NCBI GenBank assembly: GCA_020719165.1
Contig: DYQT01000006.1
Coordinates: 1-38,537, forward strand
Length of the DNA: 38,537 nucleotides
Direction of reading: 5' to 3'
Origin: Draconibacterium orientale
GTDB taxonomy: Bacteria > Bacteroidota > Bacteroidia > Bacteroidales > FEN-979
Made by a program: the position numbers and the translations under genes. Shown here in pieces: positions 14,939 to 34,715 of the stretch. Positions within the stretch are counted from its first letter, which is position 1. Each line of letters starts with the position of its first letter. The notes under the pieces were generated by a model. The model was not told where the DNA came from and did not search any database. It worked only from the letters and a program-made list of their open reading frames with translations.

Positions 14939-15493
14939 CTAACCCAGCAAATGCACCGCCGTTAGCAACTCTTTCCCGATCTCGATGGCTTTTTCGTTTT
15001 CAGGAATCAGGGCATGGTGGCGCGCAGGAAGAGATTTTTGCAATCCTTTGTGGATGAATTCAGGGGCAACCAGCGGTTTTAATTTTAAAAATCCACCAAG
15101 AACAATCATGTTGAATATTTTTGAAAGCCCCCGTTTCCCTGCTTCATCGGCTGCTTCGATGGAATAGATATTGATATCCTTCCGCTCGGGCAAACGGGTA
15201 AGTCCGTTCGGGTCGTAGATAAGCAGACCTCCCGGTTTAACAGTTTTTTCAAATTTATCCATCGATTGCTGGTTCAGGATGATGGCTGTGTCGTAAGAGT
15301 TCAGAATGGGGGAACTAATTCGTTCATCGCTGATAATCACAGTTACATTGGCAGTGCCACCACGCATTTCCGGGCCGTATGAGGGCATCCAGCTCACTTC
15401 TTTATTTTGCATCACCCCCGAATAAGCGAGGATTTTTCCCATGGAGAGGACACCTTGTCCGCCGAAGCCTGCAATAATTATCTCTTCTGTCAT
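14939..15493 (-). CDS. 2-oxoacid:ferredoxin oxidoreductase gamma subunit (VorC/KorC type)
   Basis: 184 residues from the ATG at 15493 (MTEEIIIAGFGGQGV). A TTG at 15520 would add nine residues with no family support. It is the gamma domain that binds the CoA side of the substrate complex in 2-oxoacid:ferredoxin oxidoreductases. Signatures are GFGGQGVLSMGKILAYSG at the N-terminus, SWMPSYGPEMRGGTANVTV, and the NMIVLGGFLK helix. It is the last oxidoreductase component in the order ferredoxin, alpha (VorB), beta, gamma, with 51 bp separating it from the beta gene. Branched-chain, aromatic and 2-oxoglutarate enzymes share this layout, so the substrate is open. Aromatic 2-oxoacids would fit the neighbouring aminotransferase and decarboxylase. 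Confidence 0.92.
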   Translation of the reverse strand: MTEEIIIAGFGGQGVLSMGKILAYSGVMQNKEVSWMPSYGPEMRGGTANVTVIISDERISSPILNSYDTAIILNQQSMDKFEKTVKPGGLLIYDPNGLTRLPERKDINIYSIEAADEAGKRGLSKIFNMIVLGGFLKLKPLVAPEFIHKGLQKSLPARHHALIPENEKAIEIGKELLTAVHLLG

Positions 15494-15544
15494 ATCAAAT
15501 GAATATCGAATATTGAACAACGAATTTTGATGGTTGAATGGCTT

Positions 15545-16357
15545 TTATTCCTTTTCAAGCGTTTCTTTTTTTTCTACAAGTTTCCCGTCTACCTTGATGT
15601 CACCAAGTTGATAAAATGGGAACATGTTATCTTCCATCCATTTGTTGGATTGTACCGGGGTCATCTTCCAACCGGAATTGCAATTTGAAACGATTTCAAT
15701 AAAGCATAGCCCTTTGTTTTCTTTCTGAAGTTCGAAAGCTTTCCGGATTGCTTTTTTAGTTTTTCGAACATGATTTGGGGTGTGCACCGCCTGTCGGGTA
15801 ACATAATATACCCCGGGGAGGTGCGCAACCAGTTCGGTAATCTTGAGCGGATGACCCATTGTTGGAACATCCCGTCCGTAGGGCGACGTCGAAGAACGCA
15901 TGCCGGGAAGGGTGGTGGGGGCCATTTGACCACCGGTCATTCCGTAAATTCCATTGTTGATGAAGATAATGGTGATATTTTCTCCACGGTTACAGGCGTG
16001 AATGGTCTCCGCCGTACCTATCGCGGCAAGGTCGCCATCGCCCTGGTAGGTGAACACAAAATGATTGGGCCACATGCGTTTGATCGCGGTGGCTAAAGCA
16101 GGTGCACGTCCATGAGCCGCTCCAAGCATATCGATGTTCAGAAAGTCGTAGGCAAGAACGGAGCACCCTACGGGGGATACTCCGATGGTTTTATCAGCAA
16201 TATCCATCTCTTCAAGCACTTCCATGAGCATACGGTGTGCAGTGCCATGACCGCAACCCGGGCAATAACTCAATGGCCGGTCGACCATCAGATCTGTCTT
16301 TTTATAGACAATGTTTTCCGGTTTATGTATTTCGGTTTTTGCGAATTGTTCTTCCAT
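15545..16357 (-). CDS. 2-oxoacid:ferredoxin oxidoreductase beta subunit (TPP-binding)
   Basis: 270 residues. It binds thiamine pyrophosphate and a [4Fe-4S] cluster and carries out the decarboxylation. The cluster cysteines are in YCPGCGHG and PVGCSV, with a further one in IVSNCNSGW. The TPP motif runs from GDGDLAAIG to the NN of IFINNGIYGMTGGQMAPTT. The N-terminus has a long lead before the CPGC motif, as in VorB-associated beta chains. Translation should be coupled to the alpha gene: the ggagg ribosome binding site overlaps the alpha stop, and the gap is 2 bp. This set is separate from korAB at 1-1560, and the two beta chains differ clearly in sequence and length (270 and 345), pointing to different substrates. 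Confidence 0.93.
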   Translation of the reverse strand: MEEQFAKTEIHKPENIVYKKTDLMVDRPLSYCPGCGHGTAHRMLMEVLEEMDIADKTIGVSPVGCSVLAYDFLNIDMLGAAHGRAPALATAIKRMWPNHFVFTYQGDGDLAAIGTAETIHACNRGENITIIFINNGIYGMTGGQMAPTTLPGMRSSTSPYGRDVPTMGHPLKITELVAHLPGVYYVTRQAVHTPNHVRKTKKAIRKAFELQKENKGLCFIEIVSNCNSGWKMTPVQSNKWMEDNMFPFYQLGDIKVDGKLVEKKETLEKE

Positions 16358-16359
16358 AA

Positions 16360-17442
16360 CTAACCTCCGATAATGTTTTGTTCAAGTGCCCTTACAACTT
16401 CATCCGGGGATGGGATGATGCCGCCGAAACGGCCGAAATGTTCGATTTTAACTTTGCAGCCCACCGAAAGCTTTACATCTTCAATCATCTGTCCGGCGTT
16501 CATTTCCACGACGAGGATTCCTTTTACACGGTTTCCGACGTTGGAAACCTGAATTGTCGGGAACGGGAAGAGCGTGATCGGACGGAAAAGCCCGACTTTG
16601 ATGCCTTTTGCGCGTGCAAGGTCGATGGCTTTCTGACAGATGCGGGCCGAGAGACCGAAGGCGACAAAAAGGTAGTCGGCATCTTCGCATTGGATCTCTT
16701 CATACAGCACTTCATGTTGCTCCATGAGTTTGTATTTGGCCTGCAGTTTCAGATTTACGCGTTCCTGCCCGGCAGGATCGAGGTCGAGTGAAGTGATGAT
16801 GTTGTGGTTACGGGTTTTTGGTCTGCCGTTTGACGCCCACGGACATTGTTTAATGACCTCCTCATCGGTGCGACGCGGAATCTGGTCGAAAAGAACAACC
16901 TTCTCCATCATCTGGCCAATAGCTCCATCGGAGAGAATCATGACCGGGGTACGGTATTCATATGCCTTGTCAAAACCGAGTTTAACGTGGTCACACATCT
17001 CCTGAACCGATGCTGGTGCAAGAACCAGCATTTTGTAGTCGCCATGGCCACCGCCTTTCACGGCTTGAAAATAATCGGCTTGGGATGGCTGGATTGTTCC
17101 CAATCCTGGTCCGCCGCGCACAATGTTTACGATTACAGCCGGAAGTTCGGCTCCGGCCATATAACTGATGCCCTCCTGCATCAGGCTGATTCCCGGACTT
17201 GACGACGATGTCATCACCATTTTTCCTGTTCCGGCGCCGCCATAAAGCATGTTGATGGCAGCTACTTCGCTTTCAGCCTGAAGCACTACCATTCCGGTGC
17301 GTTCAAACGGCTTTTCAGCCATCAGGTATTCCATTACCTCGGACTGCGGTGTGATCGGGTATCCGAAATAACCATCGCAACCCGCGCGGATTGCAGCCTC
17401 GGCTATGGCTTCGTTGCCCTTCATTAATCTGAGTTCACCCAT
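16360..17442 (-). CDS. vorB: 3-methyl-2-oxobutanoate (2-oxoacid):ferredoxin oxidoreductase alpha subunit VorB
   Basis: 360 residues, normal for VorB, which with its partners oxidatively decarboxylates branched-chain or related 2-oxoacids to acyl-CoA and reduces ferredoxin. The N-terminus has MKGNEAIAEAAIRAGCDGYF followed by GYPITPQSEVMEYLM, the standard PP-domain entry, and later EAGISYM-like and GGPGLGTIQPSQADY stretches. The C-terminal domain includes LFRPITLFPFPTI. It follows the ferredoxin gene after 20 bp and precedes beta after 2 bp. The name VorB is a family label: members include enzymes acting on aromatic pyruvates and 2-oxoglutarate. The PLP aminotransferase just upstream suggests it feeds on amino-acid-derived 2-oxoacids. 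Confidence 0.9.
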   Translation of the reverse strand: MGELRLMKGNEAIAEAAIRAGCDGYFGYPITPQSEVMEYLMAEKPFERTGMVVLQAESEVAAINMLYGGAGTGKMVMTSSSSPGISLMQEGISYMAGAELPAVIVNIVRGGPGLGTIQPSQADYFQAVKGGGHGDYKMLVLAPASVQEMCDHVKLGFDKAYEYRTPVMILSDGAIGQMMEKVVLFDQIPRRTDEEVIKQCPWASNGRPKTRNHNIITSLDLDPAGQERVNLKLQAKYKLMEQHEVLYEEIQCEDADYLFVAFGLSARICQKAIDLARAKGIKVGLFRPITLFPFPTIQVSNVGNRVKGILVVEMNAGQMIEDVKLSVGCKVKIEHFGRFGGIIPSPDEVVRALEQNIIGG

Positions 17443-17462
17443 TTGAGTTTCTTTTTTGATTG

Positions 17463-17693
17463 TTATTCAGTTGCGACTTTGGCACGGTAAACAGTGATTA
17501 CCCCGTCGGGGCATACAAGGGCGCAGTTGGTGCAGCCCGTACACTCATTGTTTACTTTCATAGCAAAATGATATCCTTTGCTGTTCACTTCCTTCGACAT
17601 TGCGATCACCGTGAAGGGGCACGCAGCAATGCACACTTCACAGCCCTTGCAGCGCTCGGTGTTGATGACGATGTCACCTGTAATTTTTGCCAT
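17463..17693 (-). CDS. Two-cluster ferredoxin-like subunit of the 2-oxoacid oxidoreductase
   Basis: 76 residues with two classical [4Fe-4S] motifs, CKGCEVCIAACP and CTGCTNCALVCP. It starts with MAKITGDIVINTE and is the delta (ferredoxin) component that takes electrons from the TPP subunit. It is first of the four oxidoreductase genes and 20 bp before vorB. Upstream at 17729-17736 the minus strand reads TACTTTCG, one mismatch from the -7 consensus, so the four-gene unit may have its own weak promoter as well as read-through from the aminotransferase gene 85 bp away. Confidence 0.94.
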   Translation of the reverse strand: MAKITGDIVINTERCKGCEVCIAACPFTVIAMSKEVNSKGYHFAMKVNNECTGCTNCALVCPDGVITVYRAKVATE

Positions 17694-17778: not shown

Positions 17779-19095
17779 TTATTTATTATGGTTCAAATTA
17801 AACTTTTTGAGCCTTTCTTCCAGTGCAGGGAATTGCTCTCGTTTCACGAGGGATACGCAAGCGCGGATACCCTCCGTGCGTTCGCTGCCGGTGATGCTGA
17901 GAGCGATGGCGCTGATGCCATAGTAAATCAGCTCCTGGAGCAATTCTTCTCCGCTAAACCCGGGATAGGCAAAGGTGAAATAAAACCCATCGCCAATGGG
18001 TTCATCTTCGTCTTTGTCGTACACGATCGTGAAACCATTGTCGGTAAACATTTTTTTCATGATTTTAGCCTTCGCCCCATATTCCTTGACCACCTCAACA
18101 AAATCAAAGGTTCCGTCGTTGGCAGCTTTTAGCATCGCGGCCAGCGCGTATTGGGTTGAATGGGCGGTGCCGGCGCTCAAAGCGTAAACTGTGCCGTAGA
18201 TAAGGGCCCGGCCAACAATATCTGTCGAATAATAATTCAGCAGATCGGGTGCCTGAAGGTTGAACAGCTTGTTCGACAAAATCATCAGTCCGATGCGCTG
18301 ACCGGCATAACTGAAAGCTTTGGAACTTGAAATGAGCAATAAATAGTTGTCGGTATATTTTGCCACGGTTGGCTGGTATGGCGGTTGACCGGGCTTTGAA
18401 TAATCTTTTCTGAAGTCCATGGCAAAATAGGCCAGATCTTCAATGATGATCACATCATATTTGGTCGCAAGTTCACCTATGATTCTCAGCTCTTTGTCGG
18501 TAAAGCATATCCAGGAAGGATTGTTGGGGTTGGAGTATAGAACAGAATGAATGTTTCCCTTGGCAAAATAACTTTCGAGTTTATCCCGGAGTTTGTCGCC
18601 ACGGTAATTGTACACATCAAAGGTTTCGAACTTCAGCCCCAGAACCCTGTGCTGCTGGTGATGCACCGGAAATCCGGGGTCGATAAACAGGGTGGTGTCT
18701 TTGTAGCGATGTATCTTGGAAAAGGTTAAAAATGCGGCAAAACCACCCTGCATGCTCCCAACTGTGGGCAAACAATTTGCGGCATCAACATCGATGTCAA
18801 GAAATAATTTTACAAACCGGGCGGCCTCTTTTTTCAACACCGGAGTCCCTTCAATATCGGGGTAAATGGAGGCAACCCCTTTCTTCAGGGCTTCAATTTC
18901 GGCCTGAACCCCGATTTCAGTGGCCGGGAGCCCGGGTACACCCATCTCCATGCGGATAAATTTCTCGCCGGTTTCGGTCTCAATGCCATTTATCAGCCGC
19001 TTGATTTCGCGAATGGTTGCCTTGCCGATATTTCGGATTTTGCTCTCCTGAAAATGGCGCTGAACAACCTCGTAGTTGATGGGTGTGTCTTTCAT
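17779..19095 (-). CDS. PLP-dependent class I/II aminotransferase
   Basis: 438 residues. Fold-type I aminotransferase features are clear: SIYPDIEGTP near 76-85, the SNPNNPSW loop (N192 stacks near the cofactor), D220 in IIIEDLAYFAMD with Y223, and the Schiff-base lysine K269 in SSSKAFSYAGQRIG. It would swap an amino group between an amino acid and 2-oxoglutarate in the cytoplasm. The amino-acid specificity is not visible. Its position directly before a ferredoxin-VorB-beta-gamma operon argues that its 2-oxoacid product feeds the oxidoreductase. The 4-hydroxyphenylacetate decarboxylase genes upstream on the same strand make tyrosine a sensible candidate. The N-terminal 40 residues (QRHFQESKIRNIGKATIREI) are a helical lead typical of this bacteroidal subgroup. 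Confidence 0.9.
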   Translation of the reverse strand: MKDTPINYEVVQRHFQESKIRNIGKATIREIKRLINGIETETGEKFIRMEMGVPGLPATEIGVQAEIEALKKGVASIYPDIEGTPVLKKEAARFVKLFLDIDVDAANCLPTVGSMQGGFAAFLTFSKIHRYKDTTLFIDPGFPVHHQQHRVLGLKFETFDVYNYRGDKLRDKLESYFAKGNIHSVLYSNPNNPSWICFTDKELRIIGELATKYDVIIIEDLAYFAMDFRKDYSKPGQPPYQPTVAKYTDNYLLLISSSKAFSYAGQRIGLMILSNKLFNLQAPDLLNYYSTDIVGRALIYGTVYALSAGTAHSTQYALAAMLKAANDGTFDFVEVVKEYGAKAKIMKKMFTDNGFTIVYDKDEDEPIGDGFYFTFAYPGFSGEELLQELIYYGISAIALSITGSERTEGIRACVSLVKREQFPALEERLKKFNLNHNK

Positions 19096-19173: not shown

Positions 19174-21396
19174 TTATCGCACCAAAACAACATTTCCGGT
19201 AAGGGTGGTATTTTCGGGTGGAGCCATCGACGATTGATACACTATGATGAAGGCATAATTGCCTGCAGGGCACATGCTGCCCCGGAAGGTTCCGTCCCAT
19301 CCGGTTTCCGGATCTGCAGTGGAAAACACCAATTCTCCGTCACGGTTAAAGATGTTCATGCTGAATTCTCTGACGTTTGCCGTAAAAGGACGGAAAATGT
19401 CATTCAGCCTATCCCCGTTGGGTGAGAAGGCATTGGGCACCCAGATAACAATTTCACACTCCTTGCCGGTTTTCACAAACATCCGGGAGGTGTCAGAATT
19501 TTCGCACCCGTGTAAATCCGTGTAATGGTAAACGATCTGGTGATCTCCTGCCCCCTGCAACGCCGGATCAAAGTTGGTCATCTTTGATCCATCGATGCTG
19601 TATTCGCCTCCTTGAGGCGTTCCGCCGCTCAACGCGAATGATGCTTCGTTAAAACAAACTGAATCCGGACCAGCAAGGCTTACTTGTGGCGGAGGGTAGA
19701 AGTTGACTGAGATGGTTGCCGCCTGACCCTCGCCACACTCCTGGTTGTATCCCGAAACAGACAATGTGCCTGAAGTTGCCGACTGGGAAAAAGTGACAGT
19801 TGTTGCAGTGTCGTTATTGACAATGGTGGCGCCGGTTCCGGAATAGGACCAGGTGTAGGAAGTGGCGTTGGCAACATGGCGTATGGTATAAGTGCGGGAT
19901 AATCCGCCTTCACAAAAGGTCGGGTCTCCGCCAATCTTTCCCGGCGTTGCGGGAGTACGGTAAACTTTAAAAGTGAAGGACGGTACAGTTGAACTGGCCA
20001 CATACCACCATGAGTTGATGGTGTTGGTGTCTCCTGTAACAATATCCCAGAAGTGACAACCCATCAAATCATTGCATCCATTGAGGTCAACAGTGCCCAG
20101 GTCGCCTAAAGGGCTGTCGTCCCAATAAATATCGGGCTTCACCCCGGGTGGCCTCACCACCTCGACGATGTAACCATTGTCGTTGTATTCAATATCGTAA
20201 ATCGGAAGGTGGGTAATGCCGTGAATAAACCTGATGGTGGCCGTTACCAGCACACCGTTTCCGACAGGGTTTCCCAATCCGTCATTTCCATTCCAATGGA
20301 TGGTGTTAAACCCATTTCCGCCGGGATTGGAAAGTACATTGGCGTTAATCTTGACATCCCGCGGGTCGGCTCCCGGATTGGGATCTATCTCAACCAGTAT
20401 CTCGATGATGCCGTCCTGGGTTACCTTGATGCCAAGATCAACCGAACCGGTTGCACAATAGGTGGTTGTGTTTACCGGCAGGATAATTCCGGGCATAGCC
20501 TTACCGGTTGGGAAAATGGTACTGTCAGGATCAGACAGAAACACCTTATACTGGGGAATTGTGTGGAACCCCGGACGCGATTGTCTGTCATATGCAATGT
20601 TCCCGGTTGATGAACAACCCCATTGGTTGCTGGAGATGGAAAAGGTTCCGCCTACAAACCCATTGCAATTCAAACTGGTTACGATGCTGTCGTCCGACAG
20701 GATGTACATGGTTCCGTAAAACCGGCTGGTGGTAGGCGGGCCGAATATCGGCACCGGCCCGCAGTTAAATTGCCACGCTTTCGACCAAACCCGGCCTGTT
20801 ATCGGTTGATTGGCTGAATTGACAACCGTGATGTCGAAATAATTGAAATTGATGTAGCTCCAGTATGTATAGGTTGTATCCGAATCGGGAGGATAATAAA
20901 ACTCAAGAGAATAGTTGCCGGGCATTGAAGGTGTATGCCCGATCGGATTGTACCCGCCTGTTGCAGGAAGGGGCCCATTGACAGCCTCAGCGTAGGTGTT
21001 GATGAAACCTTGTCCCGACCTGGGAACAAGAGAGGGACCAATCACAATGTTACCGGCCGGGTCTTTTAACTGGTAATGCACCTCCACCGTTGAATCATTC
21101 TGGGTGATCTTGCCCAATCCGAAATAAAACTTCTCTGTTATATTTGCCACATAAATGTTGAGCCGGAATTCGGGGGCAGCATTGAAAAAACCAAAGTCGT
21201 TGCGCGATTTGTCGATGCACAGCGTCCCTTTCCTGCCGTCAAAAGGCACAATCTGCTTCGTTCCTTCCGAAAAGACCATCAATGGGATCAGCATCAGAAG
21301 GCATACCGGGAGAAAAACGTTAGAAAGGGGTTTCGCTCCCGATATAACATTTGATTCCCATCGATGCGAACTGTTGAGCGATTTTATGAAGTTCAT
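19174..21396 (-). CDS. Large secreted protein with type B (gliding-motility-associated) T9SS sorting domain
   Basis: 740 residues from the ATG at 21396, the first that leads into a signal peptide (hydrophobic core VFLPVCLLMLIPLMVF). The frame is open further upstream but lies over hpdA. The C-terminal 100 residues are a type B sorting domain: VPNAFSPNGDRLNDIFRPF, FNRDGELVFST, GWDGTFRGSMCPAGNYAFI. This marks export through the type IX system. The middle has a FlgD-like segment (NTIHWNGNDGLGNPVGNGVL) and a PKD-like domain near 520-600 (TSYTWSYSGTGATIV). It has no catalytic motif that I recognise, so it is probably a surface or matrix protein. Its start overlaps the end of hpdA by 77 bp, which is unusual for an exported protein after a radical-SAM activase. 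A non-ATG start inside the overlap cannot be excluded. Confidence 0.82.
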   Translation of the reverse strand: MNFIKSLNSSHRWESNVISGAKPLSNVFLPVCLLMLIPLMVFSEGTKQIVPFDGRKGTLCIDKSRNDFGFFNAAPEFRLNIYVANITEKFYFGLGKITQNDSTVEVHYQLKDPAGNIVIGPSLVPRSGQGFINTYAEAVNGPLPATGGYNPIGHTPSMPGNYSLEFYYPPDSDTTYTYWSYINFNYFDITVVNSANQPITGRVWSKAWQFNCGPVPIFGPPTTSRFYGTMYILSDDSIVTSLNCNGFVGGTFSISSNQWGCSSTGNIAYDRQSRPGFHTIPQYKVFLSDPDSTIFPTGKAMPGIILPVNTTTYCATGSVDLGIKVTQDGIIEILVEIDPNPGADPRDVKINANVLSNPGGNGFNTIHWNGNDGLGNPVGNGVLVTATIRFIHGITHLPIYDIEYNDNGYIVEVVRPPGVKPDIYWDDSPLGDLGTVDLNGCNDLMGCHFWDIVTGDTNTINSWWYVASSTVPSFTFKVYRTPATPGKIGGDPTFCEGGLSRTYTIRHVANATSYTWSYSGTGATIVNNDTATTVTFSQSATSGTLSVSGYNQECGEGQAATISVNFYPPPQVSLAGPDSVCFNEASFALSGGTPQGGEYSIDGSKMTNFDPALQGAGDHQIVYHYTDLHGCENSDTSRMFVKTGKECEIVIWVPNAFSPNGDRLNDIFRPFTANVREFSMNIFNRDGELVFSTADPETGWDGTFRGSMCPAGNYAFIIVYQSSMAPPENTTLTGNVVLVR

Positions 21397-22291
21397 CTTT
21401 GTCAGGAATTTTAAAATCGGTGGTGTAATATTTTTTACCAAGAAGGGGATATTTTTCACGTCCAAGGTGATGCAGCGGCAAAATGTTAATCTCATTGCGG
21501 CCCGTCGATAAAATAAACCGTGCTGTTTCAATGATATTTTCGGGCAAATCATTGAAACCCGGGATTACCGGCAACCGGAAAATTATTCGGCCCTTAAATT
21601 TTTCGGCCAAACGGCGTGCGTTATCAAGAATAACCGGAACCGGCAGGCAGGGGGAATTACGCTGGCGCTGATAAGTGGACGGATAGCGGTTCGATTCATT
21701 CAATGTTTTCAGGTCATAAAATATCCAGTCGATATATGGAAGAGATATTTCATAGTTCTCCCAGGGAACATTACCGCATGTCTCAACCGCGGTATGGACA
21801 TAAGCATCATAGCAGCGTTTCAGCAGATCATGAACAAATTCAGGCTGGGTGAAAGGTTCCCCTCCGGTGAGGGTCATGCCGCCCCCGGGTCCCCAGTATT
21901 GGCGGTCGCGACTGATTGTCGCGAAAATGTCATGAACCGAAACTTCATAACCGCCAAGCTGAAGTGCTCCTGAGCAGCAGGATTTTACACAATCGTAAGT
22001 GGTGCAGCGGGCACAAATTTTCCGGTCGAAATACAACTTTCCGGATTCACCGTTGTGGCAGATTGAGATGGCTCCATGGGTACATGCTTTGATGCACAAA
22101 CCATCCAAAGTGCATCTCGACTCCCGGTAAAGTGGTTCTGGTATAAAAGATATTCCTTCAGGATTTGAACACCACGCACATTCAAGGGAACAGCCCTTCA
22201 GAAAAACCAACGTCCGGCAACCAGGGCCATCGTGAACCGAAAAGCCCTGGATGTCGAAAATAAAACCTTTGGTTAGTTTTGATTGTTCCAT
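21320..22291 (-). CDS. hpdA: 4-hydroxyphenylacetate decarboxylase activating enzyme (radical SAM)
   Basis: 323 residues. It installs the glycyl radical on HpdB using S-adenosylmethionine and reduced ferredoxin. The SAM cluster cysteines C34, C38 and C41 lie in KGCSLECAWCSN, after the family opening FDIQGFSVHDGPGCRT. Two further ferredoxin-like cysteine groups are inserted (C60, C66, C70, C78 and C93, C96, C101, C105 with C106), as in activases of hydroxyphenylacetate decarboxylase and glycerol or choline lyases but not of pyruvate formate-lyase. MTLTGGEPFTQPEF is the GGE motif, and VETCGNVPW follows. Its start overlaps hpdC by 19 bp, so translation is coupled. The specific name rests on the neighbouring hpdB and hpdC. 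Confidence 0.9.
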   Translation of the reverse strand: MEQSKLTKGFIFDIQGFSVHDGPGCRTLVFLKGCSLECAWCSNPEGISFIPEPLYRESRCTLDGLCIKACTHGAISICHNGESGKLYFDRKICARCTTYDCVKSCCSGALQLGGYEVSVHDIFATISRDRQYWGPGGGMTLTGGEPFTQPEFVHDLLKRCYDAYVHTAVETCGNVPWENYEISLPYIDWIFYDLKTLNESNRYPSTYQRQRNSPCLPVPVILDNARRLAEKFKGRIIFRLPVIPGFNDLPENIIETARFILSTGRNEINILPLHHLGREKYPLLGKKYYTTDFKIPDKDELHKIAQQFASMGIKCYIGSETPF

Positions 22292-22530
22292 TTAAAGTCA
22301 GCACATTTAGCAGCGATCATATCCGGATAAGCCAGGGTTGTTCCCATACATTTGCCAAGATATTCTTTTTCGGAGAGGTAGTTTTCGCAGAACTTGCACT
22401 TGGCTATTTTAAGCGCCTTTCCGCATATCGGATCATCGGGACCGATTTTTTCTTTACTCAATTTACACAAACCTCTGAAAACATCTACCGGCAGGTAATA
22501 TTTACAGTCTTTACACGATTCTGCTTCCAT
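22273..22530 (-). CDS. hpdC: 4-hydroxyphenylacetate decarboxylase small (gamma) subunit
   Basis: 85 residues, matching the clostridial HpdC size. This subunit is specific to 4-hydroxyphenylacetate decarboxylase; it carries two [4Fe-4S] clusters and is needed for the hetero-octameric enzyme. Eight cysteines are visible: C6, C9, C22, C36 in the N-terminal half and C45, C48, C61, C76 in the C-terminal half. They follow the C-x2-C-x12-C-x13-C and C-x2-C-x12-C-x14-C spacing of two pseudo-repeated lobes. As I recall, one cluster in the clostridial protein uses a histidine as first ligand; here that place seems to be held by C6. It lies between hpdB (75-bp gap) and hpdA (19-bp overlap). Its presence is the best argument against other glycyl-radical enzymes such as indoleacetate decarboxylase. 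Confidence 0.88.
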   Translation of the reverse strand: MEAESCKDCKYYLPVDVFRGLCKLSKEKIGPDDPICGKALKIAKCKFCENYLSEKEYLGKCMGTTLAYPDMIAAKCADFKWNNQN

Positions 22531-22605
22531 ATTCTGTTATATTTTTCAATTTATTATTCCGGCCAGCGGAACTGAAAATTACCATGGTTGTCATTCGTCA
22601 TTCTG

Positions 22606-25275
22606 TCAAAGTTCTTCGTATTCGGTTCGTGAAATAACCTCGTCCTGGATTTGTTTTCCCAGTTCAACCCAGTATTGCGTGAAACCGGCTACACGCACCA
22701 GCAAACTCCTGAATTTATCGGGGTCGGCCTGAGCCTGTTTGAGCATTCTGGAATCGACAATGTTGAACTGCACATGAAAGCCGCCTTTGCGGAGATAGGC
22801 CCTGATCATCTCCAGGAATTTCCGGGAGCCTTCGCGGCCTTTGACGACCGACGGATGTATTTTCATGTTGAGCTGCGAATTCTGCGATTGGGCATGATTC
22901 CAACAGGTGGCTGAGTTGAAAAGTGCATAGGGCCCGTTTTTATCGGTGCCGGGATAGGCAGACACAGACCCGTCGGAAAAGGTGGTGCCGCTCAGTCGTC
23001 CGTCGGGAGTGGCAAGGGTGACCGCCCCCATGGGGCCGTGGGTAGAGACAGATATCTGACAGGCGTACATTGGCTGATCATACAGGGACCGATAGTTGTG
23101 TGCCATATCGCAAAACCATTCTTCCCACTCTTTCAGAATAGCGTCGACAAATGGATTGTCGTTTCCAAATTTCGGAGCATCCAGACTTTGCCGGTGAATT
23201 TGTTTCCAGTTATGGTAATCTGTTGTGGGAACCTGATCAATCAAGGAGTAGGAGCCTGTTTCCGCCGCGGTTTTATAACCAAAATTGGCCAATATCGCCG
23301 AGCGATATTCATCTAAGGTGTAAACATTGTCGGTAAATATATTCTTTTTCAGGGAGCCCAGCGAATTTACAAGATTGGTTGTGCCACAACTTTCGATGTT
23401 AAAAGTTGTATTGTAGCGACATCCCATTTGTCCGATGTCTTTGCCTTTTGCAAGGCAATCGGGTTTCAGCATCGAATTTATCAGGGAGGGTGATATTTTT
23501 CGCCAGGCATCATGCTGGATATTGTTAGTAAGGGTGAGCACATGGCATGCCCGGCTGAAATAATCCTTAAAGGCTTTCCAAATTTCGTCGTAGGTTGCCA
23601 ATTTTAGCCCATGAGCCGGGAAAATACGCTCACCGGTGCGCATGTCCATTCCATCAAACAAGGTGACTTCCAGCAATTTCGGAAGGTTCAGGAAGTGAAC
23701 CCCGACACTTGTTGCAGGTGCCGAACCGCCTGGAATCCAGTGGATCTGATTGTCCAGCTCAAGTGGCATCCAACTGCCGGGTGATGTTTCCAGGCATCCC
23801 CCGATGGCCCAGGCCCGGGCCTCTTCGATGTTCATCCCCTCGTGGTTGTAATTGCCAATCAGAAATTCCATGGCCACCTGATTGTTTACCCAGGCCGGAT
23901 ACCCGGTGCCAATTTTGGTGCACTCTACCCCTTTGAGCAGGAATTCTTCCGGAAGTTTTTCATCGTATAACACCGAAAGCGTGGGTTGCGGTGTATCGCA
24001 ACTAATGCCCGCTTCAAGAATCAGCATCTCAAGTTCGTTGGCAGCGGAGGTGCCGTCTTTTAAAAGCCCGCCCAGACAGAGATTATTAAAGGTGTTGCCC
24101 GAAAGAACTCCTCCAACCACACCCATGGAGGCAAAACAATCGATTTCGGTAAACTTAACACGCATGCATTCAAGCAGTTCAATGGTTTTCTCCCGGTTGA
24201 TAATGCCATTTTTCATGTCGCGTTGCCAGTAGGGGAAGAGTACTTGTCCGACCCGCCCGGGCGACAATCCGGATATTGCATCTTCATTAAGTACAGCCAC
24301 ATGGAAAAGCCAGAGCATCTGTAAAGCATCATGAAATGAACGGGGCGGCCTGGAGGATATCCAGTTGAGCCTGTCGGCCATTTCAAGGTATTCGCTTTTC
24401 TGTTTTGGCTCTTGTTCAATGGAGGCCAGGAATAGCGCTTCATCAGCGTAATTTATTGTCCATTGTTTAATTCCTTCGAGCATCAGGATTACTGCCCGGT
24501 AAAAATAGAGACGATCCATGTCGGGGTAACCGGCCACATCAGCCATGCTTTCCATACAATTTCTGATAATTCCATCGATTCCAAATTGCAACGGATAATA
24601 GTAATTCATCACCTCACGACCTTGCGGAAGCGTATAGCCTGAGTCGAACATACAGATAACCGAGCGCATCAGCGCCTCTTTTTCTTTGTATCCGGGCACA
24701 AGTTGCTCGTATTTATGACCAACATCATCCACCGATTTGTTTTTCCATTTCCTGGCTACCTCAAGCATTACAGGCATCTCTTCTACCCGCAGCCCGAATT
24801 TCCCGGCAATGGAAAGAACTTTGCCTACACTTTTTGTCACATTTCCCCCCCCTTTCCCCATGGTGGTGTAGGTGTCGGCTGTAAGTTTGCCCGATTCCTG
24901 GGCCTCCTTGTATAGTTTATCCTCTGAGGCCATAAAAAAAGCCTCCGACAGCCATGGCATCGGAAAGGATCCCCTGAGATAGGATGCTTTCACCATACAC
25001 AGAAGTTCTCCTGGAAATATCACAGGTGTTAAATGTTCAAACCCTGCTTTTAAGGCCTCTGCCCGGCGGACGATTGGAATTTCACCTTCAAGTTCTTCCC
25101 ACCGTCGGGTATACCAATAGGGAAATTCCATTGAAACCGACGACTTTGCCTCAAAGTATAGCTCCCTGGCTTCATGTGCCCGTGGAGTGGGAAGCCTTTT
25201 GCCATCCCGGGAGGTAATATCCGTAACAGGCTCATGACCGTAATAATTGATTTGATGTTGGGTCTCTTTTTCCAT
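22606..25275 (-). CDS. hpdB: 4-hydroxyphenylacetate decarboxylase, glycyl-radical catalytic subunit
   Basis: 889 residues. It decarboxylates 4-hydroxyphenylacetate to p-cresol anaerobically. All residues known from the Clostridium scatologenes structure are present at a constant offset of -9: S335 (Ser344), C494 (thiyl Cys503) and E496 (Glu505) in GGCLETSPG, H527 (His536) in GVHF, E628 (Glu637) in NIESCGT, and the radical glycine G864 (Gly873) in VRVAGFTQYW. Long stretches match clostridial HpdB as I remember it, such as MFDSGYTLPQGREV, NEDAISG, CFASMGVVGGVLSGNTFN and QISVSTHGP. The length is normal and no key residue is missing. The start at 25275 has an aagga site upstream. A promoter and a 20-bp palindrome lie upstream, so expression is probably controlled. 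It is first of hpdB-hpdC-hpdA, the order known from Clostridioides difficile. Confidence 0.94.
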   Translation of the reverse strand: MEKETQHQINYYGHEPVTDITSRDGKRLPTPRAHEARELYFEAKSSVSMEFPYWYTRRWEELEGEIPIVRRAEALKAGFEHLTPVIFPGELLCMVKASYLRGSFPMPWLSEAFFMASEDKLYKEAQESGKLTADTYTTMGKGGGNVTKSVGKVLSIAGKFGLRVEEMPVMLEVARKWKNKSVDDVGHKYEQLVPGYKEKEALMRSVICMFDSGYTLPQGREVMNYYYPLQFGIDGIIRNCMESMADVAGYPDMDRLYFYRAVILMLEGIKQWTINYADEALFLASIEQEPKQKSEYLEMADRLNWISSRPPRSFHDALQMLWLFHVAVLNEDAISGLSPGRVGQVLFPYWQRDMKNGIINREKTIELLECMRVKFTEIDCFASMGVVGGVLSGNTFNNLCLGGLLKDGTSAANELEMLILEAGISCDTPQPTLSVLYDEKLPEEFLLKGVECTKIGTGYPAWVNNQVAMEFLIGNYNHEGMNIEEARAWAIGGCLETSPGSWMPLELDNQIHWIPGGSAPATSVGVHFLNLPKLLEVTLFDGMDMRTGERIFPAHGLKLATYDEIWKAFKDYFSRACHVLTLTNNIQHDAWRKISPSLINSMLKPDCLAKGKDIGQMGCRYNTTFNIESCGTTNLVNSLGSLKKNIFTDNVYTLDEYRSAILANFGYKTAAETGSYSLIDQVPTTDYHNWKQIHRQSLDAPKFGNDNPFVDAILKEWEEWFCDMAHNYRSLYDQPMYACQISVSTHGPMGAVTLATPDGRLSGTTFSDGSVSAYPGTDKNGPYALFNSATCWNHAQSQNSQLNMKIHPSVVKGREGSRKFLEMIRAYLRKGGFHVQFNIVDSRMLKQAQADPDKFRSLLVRVAGFTQYWVELGKQIQDEVISRTEYEEL

Positions 25276-25378: not shown

Positions 25379-26092
25379 TTAAAGCCGCTTCATCTGCATC
25401 AGGCTTGCCAGGGATAGCAATACACCGAGAATGACGCCATAAACCGCGGCTACCAGAATCCGGGATCCCTCGGGGAGCATGAAATTCAGGGTTTGAGCAG
25501 GTATCCAGAAGATCGGGATGGTCTTTTTTACAACAAAGTTCCAATAGGTAAGCCAATCGCCTTCCACAACATATTGACTTACCGGTATCGGACTGAAAAA
25601 CCCTTTGATTGTTCCCGACGTATTCATAATATGCATATCGGTGATACGGTGAAAAGCCATGAAAACAGGAGCAAAGAAAAGGTTCAGCATCGTGCTTACG
25701 CTGAAAGCAGCAAGCAGTTTCAGAAAACTGAACCCGGGTTGTCGTAAGATATCAGCCGGATTTCCGGATGGAAACTGAACCCCGAATGTTTTCAGCATCA
25801 TGGGAGCGCCTTCACCGAAAATCACAAATGCAATTTTAATGCTAATTCCAAGAAAACCCCATACAATGGCGCGGGGTATAAGGCCAAACCCCTTTTTATT
25901 GTAAAAACCGGTTCGCAGCCTCAACCCCACAGATTCTCCAAAAGTAGCCAGGATGGCAAACTTAAAGAAGCTCATCGGGTAGGCGTAGTGTGCATTTAAC
26001 TCTTGATAAACCTTGAAAACAGATGGGAAAATAAAAAAAGGGAGCAAAATTATCACAATAACTCCCAATACAAGCAGGTCGATTTTCTTCAT
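25379..26092 (-). CDS. Mpv17/PMP22-like integral membrane protein
   Basis: 237 residues from the ATG at 26092 (MKKIDLLVLGVIV); a TTG at 26101 would add three residues. About five or six hydrophobic segments are visible. The C-terminal part fits the Mpv17/PMP22 family: APVFMAFHRITDM in place of the GPxxHxWY segment, then FWIPAQTLNFMLPEGSR, the W-x-P-x-Q-x2-N-F-x2-P-x3-R signature (one residue shorter than in animal Mpv17). Family members form small-solute channels in mitochondrial and peroxisomal membranes; bacterial relatives are little studied. It has its own promoter and stops 103 bp before hpdB, so it is a neighbour on the same strand and possibly of the same function, such as passage of an aromatic acid or cresol, but this is guesswork. 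The family call is from motifs only. Confidence 0.68.
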   Translation of the reverse strand: MKKIDLLVLGVIVIILLPFFIFPSVFKVYQELNAHYAYPMSFFKFAILATFGESVGLRLRTGFYNKKGFGLIPRAIVWGFLGISIKIAFVIFGEGAPMMLKTFGVQFPSGNPADILRQPGFSFLKLLAAFSVSTMLNLFFAPVFMAFHRITDMHIMNTSGTIKGFFSPIPVSQYVVEGDWLTYWNFVVKKTIPIFWIPAQTLNFMLPEGSRILVAAVYGVILGVLLSLASLMQMKRL

Positions 26093-26138
26093 AAATAGCA
26101 ATGGTGAAAGTGCCGGTCGGAATGTTTATAACCGGGTG

Positions 26139-29730: not shown

Positions 29731-30042
29731 ATGCAATCGGAAAATGTTGGAGGATATATAAGGCAACTTAGAGAAAAGGAAAATATGCCTTTGCGAAAGC
29801 TTGCAGCTATATTGGACCTTGACCAAAGCACCTTAAGTAAATTGGAAAGAGGCGATAGACCGGTAACAAGACAAATGATACCAATTATTGCCAAAACGTT
29901 CGGACTGGTTGAAAAAGATCTTGTTGTAAAGTATATGAGTAAACATATTGCTTATCAGATTGCTGATGAAGAATACGCCAACGACATCCTGAAAGCCGCG
30001 GAAGAAGAGGTGAAATACATTAAAAATCAGAAAGGGAAATGA
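29731..30042 (+). CDS. XRE-type helix-turn-helix regulator of the R-M operon
   Basis: 103 residues. Residues about 8-62 are a Cro/C1-type [23 protein letters not shown], then [19 protein letters not shown] as turn and recognition helix. A helical C-terminal tail of 40 residues follows. It resembles controller (C) proteins that time the expression of restriction genes. It overlaps the methyltransferase start by 4 bp (ATGA) and lies just after an inverted repeat in the promoter, so it probably controls its own operon. The base composition is AT-rich like the two genes that follow. It could also be an antitoxin-like regulator, but no toxin is next to it. Confidence 0.85.
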
Positions 30043-32036
30043 TGCAAAATCTATACAACGAAATGACAGAGTTGCTTCGCGAGGAAGCTCCCGACTTTTT
30101 TGTAAACAAAAAGTTTAATAAAAGCAAGGTTTCTGATGCTGCATACAGTTACAATACAGCGTTGCTTGAAATTCTTCTTAAAAACGAAGGACTGAAAAAG
30201 CAATTCTTTGTTGAAGCAGGAAAAACATTGGTGTTTAAGCAACGTGAGTTTTTACAGTTCTTAAATAACAAGAGTTTTTTAAAAGACAGTTACACCGAGT
30301 TCAAAAACCAAATCGGTTTGCAAGATGAACGCGGTGAATATTATCGTGAAAACAAAGATGTTGTTTTGGTTTTTCCTCACAAAGATTGTGTGCTTGAAGG
30401 AGGGCAAGATAAGGAAGACCAAAAACGCGATGAAATATTTTACAATGAAACCCTCGCTCCCGATGAAATTACGATGCTGTTTGCTCCCAAAGCGCTTACT
30501 AATTTTAAGCTTTTTGACAGTAAAGGAGAACATCTTCTAAATGAAAAAACGAAAATTGATTTCTCAAAACAAAATCTGATCTTAAAAGGTAATAATCTTT
30601 TGGCTCTTCATTCTTTGAAAAAGATAAAAAGTATTGCAGGGCAAATTAAACTTATATACATAGATCCTCCTTATAATACTGGTAATGATAGTTTTCACTA
30701 TAATGATAAGTTCAATCATAGTTCGTGGTTGACGTTTATGAAAAACAGATTAGAAGTTGCTAAACAACTTCTTTCAAATACTGGTTCGATATTCATTCAT
30801 ATTGACTACATTGAATTTGCGTATTTAAAAGTGTTATGTGACGAAGTATTTGGGCAGGATAATTTCGTTCAAAGTATCAGTGTAAAAACCGCAACTCCAG
30901 CAGGTTTTAAAGTTGTAAATCCTGGAACCGTAAATGTGACTGAATATATTTTAAATTATTGCAAGAATAAGAAACTCTATAAATTCAAACACATTTATGT
31001 GGAAACACAATATCAAAAAGATTATCAATATATAGTAAAAAATTTCGAAGACAACCCAACAAAGTGGCAGGTAGCAAATTTGAAAGATATTGCAATTAAA
31101 GACTTAGGTTTTACAGATGTTAAAGAATTGAAAAAGAAATTTGGTGATGAAGCTGGGAGTTTCATTATCGACAGCAAGATGGCTGAAATAGCTGAAACAA
31201 ATGCTGAAAGGGTTTTTGCATCTTATGGCCCACATAAACCAGCAGGTGTTTTAAGCGAACTTATGGAGAAATCAAAAAATAGTCCAGATCAAATATTTTA
31301 TCACGAAAGAGAAGAAAACGATCCATTCATTTTAAGAAACGGAAGGTTATTTGCGTTTTATTCTAAAAAACTCAGAATTGTTGATGGGAAAAAAGTGCCA
31401 ACAAAAATCCTAACAGATTTCTGGGATGATGTTTCATGGGATAGTTTGTCATTTGAAGGTGGAGTAAAACTTAAAAATGGAAAGAAACCAGAAAAACTTT
31501 TGAAAAGGATTGTTGAGTTGGCAACGGACAATGAGAATGATATTGTAATGGATTTTCATTTAGGAAGCGGAACAACTGCTGCCGTTGCACATAAAATGAA
31601 AAGGAGATATATAGGACTTGAACAACTTGACTATTTAGAAAATGGCAGTGTAACGCGATTGAAAAATGTTATCGATGGAGATACAACCGGGATTTCTCAA
31701 TCTGTCAACTGGAAAGGTGGTGGGAGTTTTGCTTACGCTGAATTAAAGCAGTACAATCAGCAATACATGGATGATATTGAAAAAGCAAAAGACGGCAAAA
31801 CATTAAAAAAGCTCTATGAACAAATGAAAGAGGAAGCATTTTTCAGAATTGAAATTGAGCATGAGAAATGGAACAATGGCGAATTTGAAAAGCTTACTTT
31901 GGGAGAACAAAAACAATTGCTTTGCGAGTGCCTTGATAAAAACCATTTGTATGTAAATCTTTCTGAAATGGCTGATGCCGAATACAAAATGAGCAAAGAT
32001 GATATTGCACTCAATAAAAAGTTTTACGATATTTAA
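30039..32036 (+). CDS. mod: Type III restriction-modification system methyltransferase (Mod)
   Basis: 665 residues, in the normal range for Mod, which methylates adenine N6 on one strand of an asymmetric site and also supplies target recognition for Res. The catalytic motif D209-P-P-Y212 ([17 protein letters not shown]) precedes the SAM motif at D505 ([20 protein letters not shown]), the beta-class order expected for Mod. SAM motif variants with FxGSGT are usual; the FHLGSGT form is slightly unusual. The target-recognition region lies between (about 260-490). The N-terminal 200 residues include the Mod-type [20 protein letters not shown] and [20 protein letters not shown]. It overlaps the regulator by 4 bp and precedes res by 12 bp. 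The recognition site cannot be read from sequence. Confidence 0.95.
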
Positions 32037-32048
32037 TCAAATGCAACA

Positions 32049-34715
32049 ATGGATTTATTAGCAGATAAAATACACGGTTACTGGAAAGACGGTTTTATTA
32101 ATTACGAGGAAAAGGATTACATCAAAGGCAATCTTAATCCGATGTTTCTCGACCGCTTGTATCAGCAGGAAGCCCTTGCAAAATTTGATTTTTATCTAAA
32201 TAAATTTCCTGCTCGTCCTAAAGACAAACCAATACATCTTTTGCTTAATATGGCCACCGGTAGTGGTAAAACCGTTCTGATGGCTGCCAATATGTTAGAG
32301 CTTTACACAAAAGGGTATCGAAATTTTATTTTTATCGTCAATAGCGCCAACATTATTAAAAAAACCATTGCTAATTTTACCGAGAAAGGAAACAGCAAAT
32401 ATTTATTTGACGATAAAATAATTATTGATTTCAAAGAAATTCACATTAATCAGGTTGAAAATTTTGAAACCGTTCCGTATTCAGACATCAACATTTTATT
32501 TAGCACCATTCAGGGCTTGCACGTTCAACTCAAAGAACCAAGAGAAAATGGGTTAACTTTTGAAAGTTTGCAACAATCAAAATTAGTGATACTTTCCGAC
32601 GAAGCTCACCATTTAAACACACTCACCAAAAGGAAAAAAAATAAAACCGAAGAAGAAGAAGAAAACAGTTGGGAATGGACAATCAATATGATCGTTTCAA
32701 ATCATTCTGAAAATATTTTATTGGAATATACCGCAACAGTAGATTTGAATCATCCTGAAATTGCCAAAAAATATGCTGATAAAATTTTAATGCGTTATTC
32801 GCTTAAAGAATTTCGTAACGACAAATATAGTAAGGAAATAAAACTTATAAAATCAGGTGTTACTACCGAAGAAAGAATATTACAAGCATTACTGTTAAGT
32901 CAATATCGCTTAAAAGTTGCAAATGATTTTAAATTTGATTCACCATATTTACCTTTTAAACCTGTAGTTCTGTTTAAAAGTTCAAGTATTGATGAAAGCG
33001 AAAAATGTTTTGAAGAGTTCAAACGACTTTTGAAAAATCTGGAATCACAGAATTTAAAGGCATTGCAAAGCAATGGTGGAGCAACTCTCAAAAAAGCATT
33101 TGAGTTTTTTAAACTAAGAAATATTTCCCTTGATCGGCTTGCGACCGAAATAGCAGATGCTTTTCGTGCAGAAAGATGTATTATTGTTAACAACGAAAAT
33201 GACAGCGAAGCAAAGCAAATTGAGTTGAATCAATTGGAAGGCGATAAAAACGAAATAAGAGCTATTTTTACTGTGAAAATGTTAACCGAAGGTTGGGACG
33301 TGTTAAACTTGTTTGACATTGTACGTTTGGATGAAAGTAACGGAATAAACACAAATGGTAAACCTGCCGCCAGCACTATTTCAGAAGCTCAGTTAATCGG
33401 TAGAGGCGCCAGATATTTCCCTTTTGTTTTAAAAACTGACGAAGAAATGTATCAGCGTAAATTTGATAAAGATTTACGAAATGATTTGCGTTGCCTTGAA
33501 GAGTTGTATTATCACAGTGTAAACGACAATAAATATATTGATGCTATTACCAAAGAACTGGTAGAACAAGGGGTTTATGACCCAAATCAGGATGAAGCGC
33601 CTTTGGAGGTTAGAGTAAAACCCGAGTTTAAACAAACCGCGCTTTGGGATGAAGGATTGTTATTTACGAATGAGTTGGTAAGAAAGGATAATAAAAAAGT
33701 TACTTCATTAAAACAAATTCACGAAACCGGGTTGCAATATAAGCATTTCGTTGGCACAAGTGGAACTGACGAGTTAGTTGTATTTGATGAGGAAGCTGTA
33801 AAGGCAGACAGAGAGTTACAGAAAAAATTTGTCGGATCGATAAACAAAGAAATTAAATTAATTGATTTGGGACTAAACATTTGTTTGAAAGCAACTGAAA
33901 ATATTCCGTTCTTCAATTTTGAAAATCTCAATAATATTTTGCCTCAGTTAAAATCTAAAAGGGAATTTTTGACAAACGATAATTGGATTGGAAAAACGCC
34001 CGTCACTCTAATTGGAAGCAAAGACCGATTAGAAGCATTGAAACCAAAAGAAAAAATAACAATTGCCAAAAACATTCTAGCAGCAATTAAGAACGACATC
34101 GGGGCAAGGGTTCATAAATATGAAGGAAGCATGGAGTTCGAGGGCCGACCGTTGAAAAGTTATTTGCAAAAAGATATTGTAATGATGGTTTCTGAACCGG
34201 AAGAAGATAGCAAAAAGCAATTCGGTAAATCAATGACAGGCAATAGCAGACAAGATTTTAAGATGAATGTAGCTGATGCCGACTGGTATATTTACGATGA
34301 AAATTATGGAACAAGTGAGGAAAAATATTTTATAAAATACATTGAACAGGTAATGACATTGCTAAAACAAAAATACATCGACATATATTTGCTTCGCAAT
34401 GAAAAACTTTTTAAAATCTACGATTTCAAGGATGGTGCAGCATTTGAACCTGACTTTGTGTTGTTTATGAAAGAGAAAAAAACTGATAAGAAATTATCAT
34501 ATCAACTTTTCATTGAACCCAAAGGAGACGGTTACATTGCCAAAGACCAATGGAAAGAGGATTTTCTGAATGAAATAAACATCAAAGCCAAAGTGAAAAA
34601 AGTTGAATTACTTTACGAGGACGATAAATTTAAAATCTTCGGTTTGCCTTTCTATAACTATCAAACAAGACAGAAGTTTGAAACTAAATTTAAAGAGGTT
34701 TTGAAAGTTGAATAA
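32049..34715 (+). CDS. res: Type III restriction endonuclease subunit (Res)
   Basis: 888 residues, of typical Res size. It is an SF2 helicase-type ATPase with a nuclease domain that cuts DNA when two unmethylated sites meet. Walker A is A69-TGSGKT75, the DEAH box is D184-EAH187 (LSDEAHH), and motif VI-like AQLIGRGARYFPF follows at about 460. The C-terminal PD-(D/E)XK nuclease shows D802 in FEPDF and E823-x-K825 in IEPKG, the correct spacing. Nothing is missing, so the system looks intact. Codon use is strongly A/T-rich compared with murD2 before it; for example 33301-33360 has 19 G+C out of 60 against 31 out of 60 in 10441-10500 within sucA. This supports recent transfer of the three-gene unit. 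Confidence 0.95.
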   Translation: MDLLADKIHGYWKDGFINYEEKDYIKGNLNPMFLDRLYQQEALAKFDFYLNKFPARPKDKPIHLLLNMATGSGKTVLMAANMLELYTKGYRNFIFIVNSANIIKKTIANFTEKGNSKYLFDDKIIIDFKEIHINQVENFETVPYSDINILFSTIQGLHVQLKEPRENGLTFESLQQSKLVILSDEAHHLNTLTKRKKNKTEEEEENSWEWTINMIVSNHSENILLEYTATVDLNHPEIAKKYADKILMRYSLKEFRNDKYSKEIKLIKSGVTTEERILQALLLSQYRLKVANDFKFDSPYLPFKPVVLFKSSSIDESEKCFEEFKRLLKNLESQNLKALQSNGGATLKKAFEFFKLRNISLDRLATEIADAFRAERCIIVNNENDSEAKQIELNQLEGDKNEIRAIFTVKMLTEGWDVLNLFDIVRLDESNGINTNGKPAASTISEAQLIGRGARYFPFVLKTDEEMYQRKFDKDLRNDLRCLEELYYHSVNDNKYIDAITKELVEQGVYDPNQDEAPLEVRVKPEFKQTALWDEGLLFTNELVRKDNKKVTSLKQIHETGLQYKHFVGTSGTDELVVFDEEAVKADRELQKKFVGSINKEIKLIDLGLNICLKATENIPFFNFENLNNILPQLKSKREFLTNDNWIGKTPVTLIGSKDRLEALKPKEKITIAKNILAAIKNDIGARVHKYEGSMEFEGRPLKSYLQKDIVMMVSEPEEDSKKQFGKSMTGNSRQDFKMNVADADWYIYDENYGTSEEKYFIKYIEQVMTLLKQKYIDIYLLRNEKLFKIYDFKDGAAFEPDFVLFMKEKKTDKKLSYQLFIEPKGDGYIAKDQWKEDFLNEINIKAKVKKVELLYEDDKFKIFGLPFYNYQTRQKFETKFKEVLKVE

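Follow-up and report, generated by a model that had tools for sequence, protein, structure and literature searches.

A predicted 4-hydroxyphenylacetate decarboxylase operon in Draconibacterium orientale, and an apparently recurrent ligand change in its small iron-sulfur subunit

The stretch of DNA considered here (the window; 38,537 nt of Draconibacterium orientale, assembly GCA_020719165.1, contig DYQT01000006.1, positions 1-38,537) carries on its minus strand, between positions 25275 and 21320, an intact hpdB-hpdC-hpdA operon whose products are predicted to form the system of 4-hydroxyphenylacetate decarboxylase (HPAD), an oxygen-sensitive radical enzyme, with a catalytic glycyl radical subunit, a small iron-sulfur subunit and a radical-SAM activase (Table 1). 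An earlier prediction for this DNA (here the original prediction) had claimed a complete set in the order known from Clostridioides difficile, and this was borne out, all three open reading frames being complete. On the coordinates hpdB and hpdC are 75 bp apart, and the end of hpdC shares 19 bp with the start of hpdA; many of the comparison loci from Bacillota differ in this, with hpdA starting some 1.4 to 1.7 kb beyond hpdC. The three-gene set, the gene order, the catalytic residues and a small subunit with ligand sets for two clusters are shared with the HpdBCA systems of Clostridium scatologenes (PDB 2y8n/2yaj) and C. difficile. The chemistry described below is taken from published work on the clostridial enzymes, whereas the genes, residues, subunit set, family occurrence and position come from the present analysis.

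The large subunit, HpdB, scored 1442.3 bits on the curated NCBIfam model for HPAD (NF033715, cut-off 1150), and a Pfam scan found glycyl-radical domains in it. The best solved relatives were both chains of C. scatologenes HPAD (2y8n_A, 1015.2 bits; 2y8n_B, 24.0 bits), HpdB being 51.3% identical to that enzyme as against 33.7% to a different glycyl radical enzyme from the same genus. In the alignment with 2y8n_A an offset of -9 holds across the active site, and Ser335, Cys494, Glu496, His527, Glu628 and Gly864 are all present, exactly the six residues that had been listed beforehand. Ser335 and His527 would serve in binding the carboxylate end of the substrate. Roles for the thiyl Cys, for two glutamates (Glu1 and Glu2, the latter being Glu637 in C. 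scatologenes and Glu628 here) and for the glycyl-radical Gly of HPAD are described in PMC6181972.

A named genome collection yielded 272 stretches matching the search patterns, of which 231 encode relatives, and all results given for named loci refer to the best 80 of these 231. In an alignment of 93 rows (the window, the 80 named loci, the PDB sequence, nine family copies and two other glycyl radical enzymes, L052 and L053, added deliberately), Ser335, His527 and Glu628 are common to 90 rows and Cys494, Glu496 and Gly864 to 92; the exceptions are L052 and L053, which have Leu, Gly and Leu at the Ser335, His527 and Glu628 positions, and gaps in two fragments (L054 and L143). A quick tree of 87 rows, with neither a phenylacetate decarboxylase (PhdB) nor a curated indoleacetate decarboxylase among them, splits all HPAD rows from the outgroup L052/L053 by a branch with support 100. 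The C. scatologenes row forms a long branch, for which the tree program gave a warning, and the point is carried by identities instead of by its position in the tree: the C. scatologenes sequence is 49.6 to 60.3% identical to the HPADs (69.1% in the case of the fragment L054), and 33.2 and 32.1% identical to the two other glycyl radical enzymes.

With these features hpdBCA very probably encode a working HPAD, its catalysis being predicted from sequence. HpdA would make a glycyl radical at Gly864 of HpdB, from where the radical would move to Cys494; 4-hydroxyphenylacetate, its phenol held by Glu628, would then lose CO2 and p-cresol would be released, with HpdC and its two [4Fe-4S] clusters presumably seated on HpdB. 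We infer that the organism is a p-cresol producer.

The small subunit, HpdC, scored 57.8 bits on its own model (NF033716, cut-off 50), and a Pfam scan found the N-terminal domain of HPAD gamma. Its predicted model (pLDDT 80.1, or 68 over the first ten residues; pTM 0.61) matches 2y8n_B with a Z of 11.4 and a root-mean-square deviation of 1.9 over 79 residues. There are eight cysteines (6, 9, 22, 36, 45, 48, 61 and 76), of which Cys6, Cys9, Cys22 and Cys36 are predicted to hold the N-terminal cluster and Cys45, Cys48, Cys61 and Cys76 the C-terminal one, Cys6 replacing the His found in most HpdCs. The first aligned pair is residue 4 of the model with residue 1 of the chain, which would place residue 6 on chain residue 3 if there is no intervening gap; we take His3 of the C. 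scatologenes small subunit to be a cluster ligand. Among 99 HpdC sequences (74 from named loci, 23 from family stretches, with genomes partly shared, the window and the PDB piece) the C-terminal four cysteines are invariant and Cys9, Cys22 and Cys36 are missing only in L142, while position 6 is His in 55 and Cys in 42, the other two being L142, with Tyr, and the PDB piece, which is clipped and has a gap there. That the site is seen only as His or Cys, save in L142, where the three partner cysteines have gone as well, supports position 6 as a ligand. Over the 80 named loci, HpdC is of the His type in 53, the Cys type in 20 and the Tyr type in one, six having no detected hpdC (L077, L078, L094, L104, L109 and L143).

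The distribution of the two types was followed on a tree of 83 HpdB rows (77 labelled, 23 of them Cys) that excluded both outgroup enzymes, the PDB sequence and L142, a row on a long branch. Three changes of label are needed on this tree, two of them forced by starred branches. Uniting the window's clade with L092 and L093 as a single clade was not rejected by the approximately unbiased test (p-AU 0.78, 83 rows), while a single origin of the Cys ligand that includes L113 was (p-AU 6.55e-32, on a hand-picked subset of 24 of the 83 rows, L113 included); given the gene tree, this rejection implies that the swap from His to Cys would have been made at least twice. L113 is one contig of a metagenome-assembled genome (MAG). 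In the window's own family two genomes (G020 and G022) have a His-type HpdC together with HpdBs that share no more than 73 and 72% identity with that of the window, a difference suggestive of replacement or separate acquisition. As a separate observation, L142, an Oligoflexia MAG, encodes an HpdC (L142:12678-12956) that lacks all four N-terminal ligands and keeps the C-terminal four; its HpdB, although on a long branch, retains the catalytic residues. The function of the HPAD small subunit is described as still unknown (PMC12358834, PMC12590467 and PMC11194802), and natural variants of these two kinds, with the ligand exchanged or the cluster lost, make its role testable through subunit swaps.

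Table 1 Predicted genes of the HPAD locus and its neighbours in the window.
Feature	Position	Strand	Description
hpdB	22606..25275	-	HPAD large (catalytic) subunit, 889 aa; thiyl Cys494, Glu496, Ser335, His527, Glu628, glycyl-radical Gly864
hpdC	22273..22530	-	Small iron-sulfur subunit, 85 aa; Pfam 4HPAD_g_N, NF033716, fold match 2y8n_B
hpdA	21320..22291	-	Radical-SAM glycyl-radical-enzyme activase, 323 aa; CxxxCxxC at residues 34-41, cysteine-rich stretch Cys60-Cys106
Class I/II aminotransferase	17779..19095	-	Candidate first step, tyrosine to 4-hydroxyphenylpyruvate; from model/Pfam scan and locus comparison
VOR-type 2-oxoacid:ferredoxin oxidoreductase, four subunits	14939..17693	-	Candidate 4-hydroxyphenylpyruvate oxidoreductase
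Oxidoreductase delta subunit	17463..17693	-	
Oxidoreductase alpha subunit	16360..17442	-	
Oxidoreductase beta subunit	15545..16357	-	
Oxidoreductase gamma subunit	14939..15520	-	
240-aa membrane protein	25379..26101	-	Upstream of hpdB; neighbour, outside the HPAD system

The usual order of genes in the genus is yqgE, the membrane protein, hpdBCA, (a CHU_C-type secreted protein), the aminotransferase and the oxidoreductase with its four subunits. Of the 20 stretches L056-L075, 15 have yqgE upstream of hpdB, and several other genera have hpdBCA after yqgE with no membrane protein between. The membrane protein matched no Pfam or NCBIfam family at E 0.001, and was rejected as a part of the HPAD system, since congeners that lack HPAD retain it, as do other families of the order (matches in 31 of 61 genomes). 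The hpdB-free family genomes inspected at this site were four congeners (L048-L051; G004, G023, G031, G033 and G035 are outside this set), and all four have an empty site, with the same neighbours and no hpd genes; the flanking matches are only about 90 to 130 bp apart, too short a distance for an hpd remnant.

As to where the substrate comes from, we lean slightly towards a supply of 4-hydroxyphenylacetate from tyrosine by the neighbouring aminotransferase and VOR-type oxidoreductase. The alpha subunit of the latter scored 534.9 bits on the VorB model NF005507 (cut-off 399). According to PMC13285125, an HPAD-linked oxidoreductase of this type has been characterised and is specific for (hydroxy)phenylpyruvate, the HpdDEFG-HpdJ-HpdK-HpdBCA cluster of C. 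scatologenes likewise has HPAD close to such an enzyme, and the pathway there ends with a kinase of the butyrate-kinase type. The likeness drawn between the oxidoreductases is at the level of VOR type, and the window differs from that cluster in having an aminotransferase. Two butyrate-kinase-family genes exceed the cut-off in the organism's own genome (the same model passes in 4 of 14 control genomes), which also has an IOR-like gene below its cut-off (539.8 bits against 650.9); none of the genes scanned or read in the window was recognised as an acyltransferase or a kinase, a phosphate acyltransferase not having been searched for. On the strength of the linked aminotransferase, the VOR-type alpha subunit and the butyrate-kinase-family genes, a route from tyrosine to p-cresol is likely in this organism.

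The alternative is that HPAD acts on 4-hydroxyphenylacetate imported after release by other microbes, which would change only the source of the substrate and which we regard as a serious possibility of somewhat less than even probability. What argues for tyrosine and against uptake is the linkage of the aminotransferase, present in 17 of the 24 family stretches fetched with hpdB (the oxidoreductase alpha subunit is present in 12). Among the 80 named loci, 16 have the aminotransferase and 13 the alpha subunit at a query coverage of at least 60%, counts that take in neither distant homologues nor genes lying past the ends of the fetched stretches or contigs, but by HpdC type the aminotransferase divides sharply, into 15 of 20 Cys-type and 1 of 53 His-type loci. 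Some observations nevertheless count against the tyrosine link. The aminotransferase is missing from seven of the 24 family stretches: L057 and L072 end at contig ends and L058 is rearranged, while L063, L071, L074 and L075 extend 3 to 7 kb past hpdA with no aminotransferase (the hpdCA pieces of G008 and G014, L046 and L047, do adjoin one). The aminotransferase-oxidoreductase operon is kept in all four HPAD-free congeners; it is thus not specific to HPAD, and its persistence without hpd speaks against a dedicated role in the HPAD pathway and fits uptake. Lastly, no gene in the organism's own genome exceeds the cut-off of TIGR02717, the alternative acyl-CoA-converting enzyme, although a similar gene, cut by a contig start, reaches 428.9 bits (cut-off 567). 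Most HPAD sequences are reported in PMC13285125 not to lie near tyrosine-fermentation genes.

It is very improbable that HpdB decarboxylates some other arylacetate, i.e. indoleacetate (giving skatole) or phenylacetate (giving toluene). Such enzymes belong to the same superfamily, and HpdB does score 729.8 bits on the indoleacetate decarboxylase model, but this is below the cut-off of 1100; of the groupings that the original prediction had named as speaking against it, the one with indoleacetate decarboxylases was looked for and was not what was found (1442 against 730 bits). Indoleacetate decarboxylase shares with HPAD the glycyl radical arylacetate decarboxylase type, the thiyl Cys and Glu1, while Glu2 is described in PMC6181972 as specific to HPAD and absent from indoleacetate decarboxylases, and the small subunit is reported there to be absent beside them. 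Since HpdB passes the HPAD cut-off and far exceeds its score on the other model, keeps Glu628 and is accompanied by the dedicated small subunit, the identification as HPAD is supported. A result less favourable to it concerns the activase: the best model for HpdA is that for the HPAD activase (NF033717), but its 305.4 bits fall short of the cut-off (420), and the model for the activase of indoleacetate decarboxylase follows only 11.5 bits behind at 293.9. This low score is read as divergence, because the radical-SAM CxxxCxxC and the cysteine-rich stretch are in place; on the subfamily model TIGR02494 HpdA scored 280.1 bits, over the cut-off of 174.35. None of the 14 HPAD-bearing genomes reached via the loci has an indoleacetate decarboxylase over the cut-off.

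The two outgroup enzymes (L052:4704-7163 in G013 and L053:4512-6977 in G001) lie next to an activase-like gene in HPAD-free congeners and are 33 to 34% identical to HpdB. Their best model is that for indoleacetate decarboxylase (730 and 748 bits, both under 1100), and with Leu at the Glu2 position they are possibly another arylacetate decarboxylase.

Within the window's family hpdB was found in 28 of 37 genomes (G000-G036), counting contig-edge fragments and one broken copy (G036), and hpdC in 26 of these 28, hpdB lying at a contig end in the two without it (G021 and G026). In the broken copy (G036:C170:26773-29228) the hpdB match is in three pieces, with two stops inside the middle one. The same search of 24 genomes from other families gave no match above 37% identity; across the order, 8 of 295 sampled genomes passed the HPAD cut-off, four of them in the window's family (G000, G020, G022 and G027), and none of 14 control genomes did so. 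The genome is a MAG of 81.3% completeness and 5.93% contamination, but a contaminant contig or a recent isolated transfer is rejected as extremely improbable, given hpdB in so much of the family and the same neighbours in many genomes of the genus and family.

Among named sequences the closest relatives come from MAGs of Bacteroidales/Bacteroidetes, and the assignment to Bacteroidota made in the original prediction holds. By record title the 87-row tree comprises 40 Bacteroidota and 17 Bacillota, together with Acidobacteriota, Chloroflexota, Coprothermobacterota and single rows of other phyla; no viral contig matched the search patterns. HPAD transcripts from Proteobacteria and Planctomycetes are reported in fjord metagenomes (PMC13228077). 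The homologue in Tannerella mentioned in the original prediction is real: PMC6181972 uses the HPAD of Tannerella forsythia (A0A1D3UC78), likewise from a Bacteroidales species. HPAD in Bacteroidota is thus already in print and the present case is not new in kind; what is added here is a frequent, position-conserved HPAD in one family, its link to the aminotransferase-oxidoreductase operon and the recurrent change of ligand in HpdC. Among the papers listed by searches of open-licence PubMed Central, none deals, by title and abstract opening, with HPAD in lake Bacteroidales or with the HpdC ligand. Makers of p-cresol are usually sought among clostridia, and HPAD is common in one Bacteroidales family; since hpdB is so frequent there and five titles of records from the window's clade (L080, L082, L083, L087 and L116) suggest Lake Pavin as the place of sampling, some p-cresol of anoxic waters may come from Gram-negative bacteria.

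Tentatively, and with confidence just short of even, these strands may be combined as follows. The window's HPAD clade would have an all-cysteine N-terminal [4Fe-4S] cluster instead of a His/Cys3 cluster, an exchange that took place at least twice, and another lineage would have discarded the cluster, so that the N-terminal cluster would be a redox or structural element that can be tuned or dispensed with and would have no part in catalysis; in the same clade HPAD would be tied to an operon for tyrosine degradation, a trait common in one environmental family of Bacteroidales.

Some individual loci deserve brief mention. In G014 (L078 and L047) hpdB and hpdCA are on different contigs, hpdB standing tail to tail with a 2-oxoglutarate dehydrogenase E1 gene and hpdC adjoining an E2-like gene (both named by eye), either through a rearrangement with its breakpoint inside the operon or through an assembly error; G008 is likewise split, close to contig ends (L046 and L057). 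In L104 and L109 the DNA after hpdB contains neither hpdC nor hpdA; as hpdB begins close to the start of either contig, the two genes may lie upstream of it. Record title and tree conflict in two cases, probably because of labels or bins: the HpdB of an ‘Alphaproteobacteria’ contig (L085) is near-identical to that of a Bacteroidales contig (L091), and a ‘Lutibacter’ HPAD (L139) groups among Bacillota. Elsewhere in the window (29731-34715) there is a type III restriction-modification pair, with the methylase at 30039-32036 and Res at 32049-34715, preceded by a small helix-turn-helix gene.
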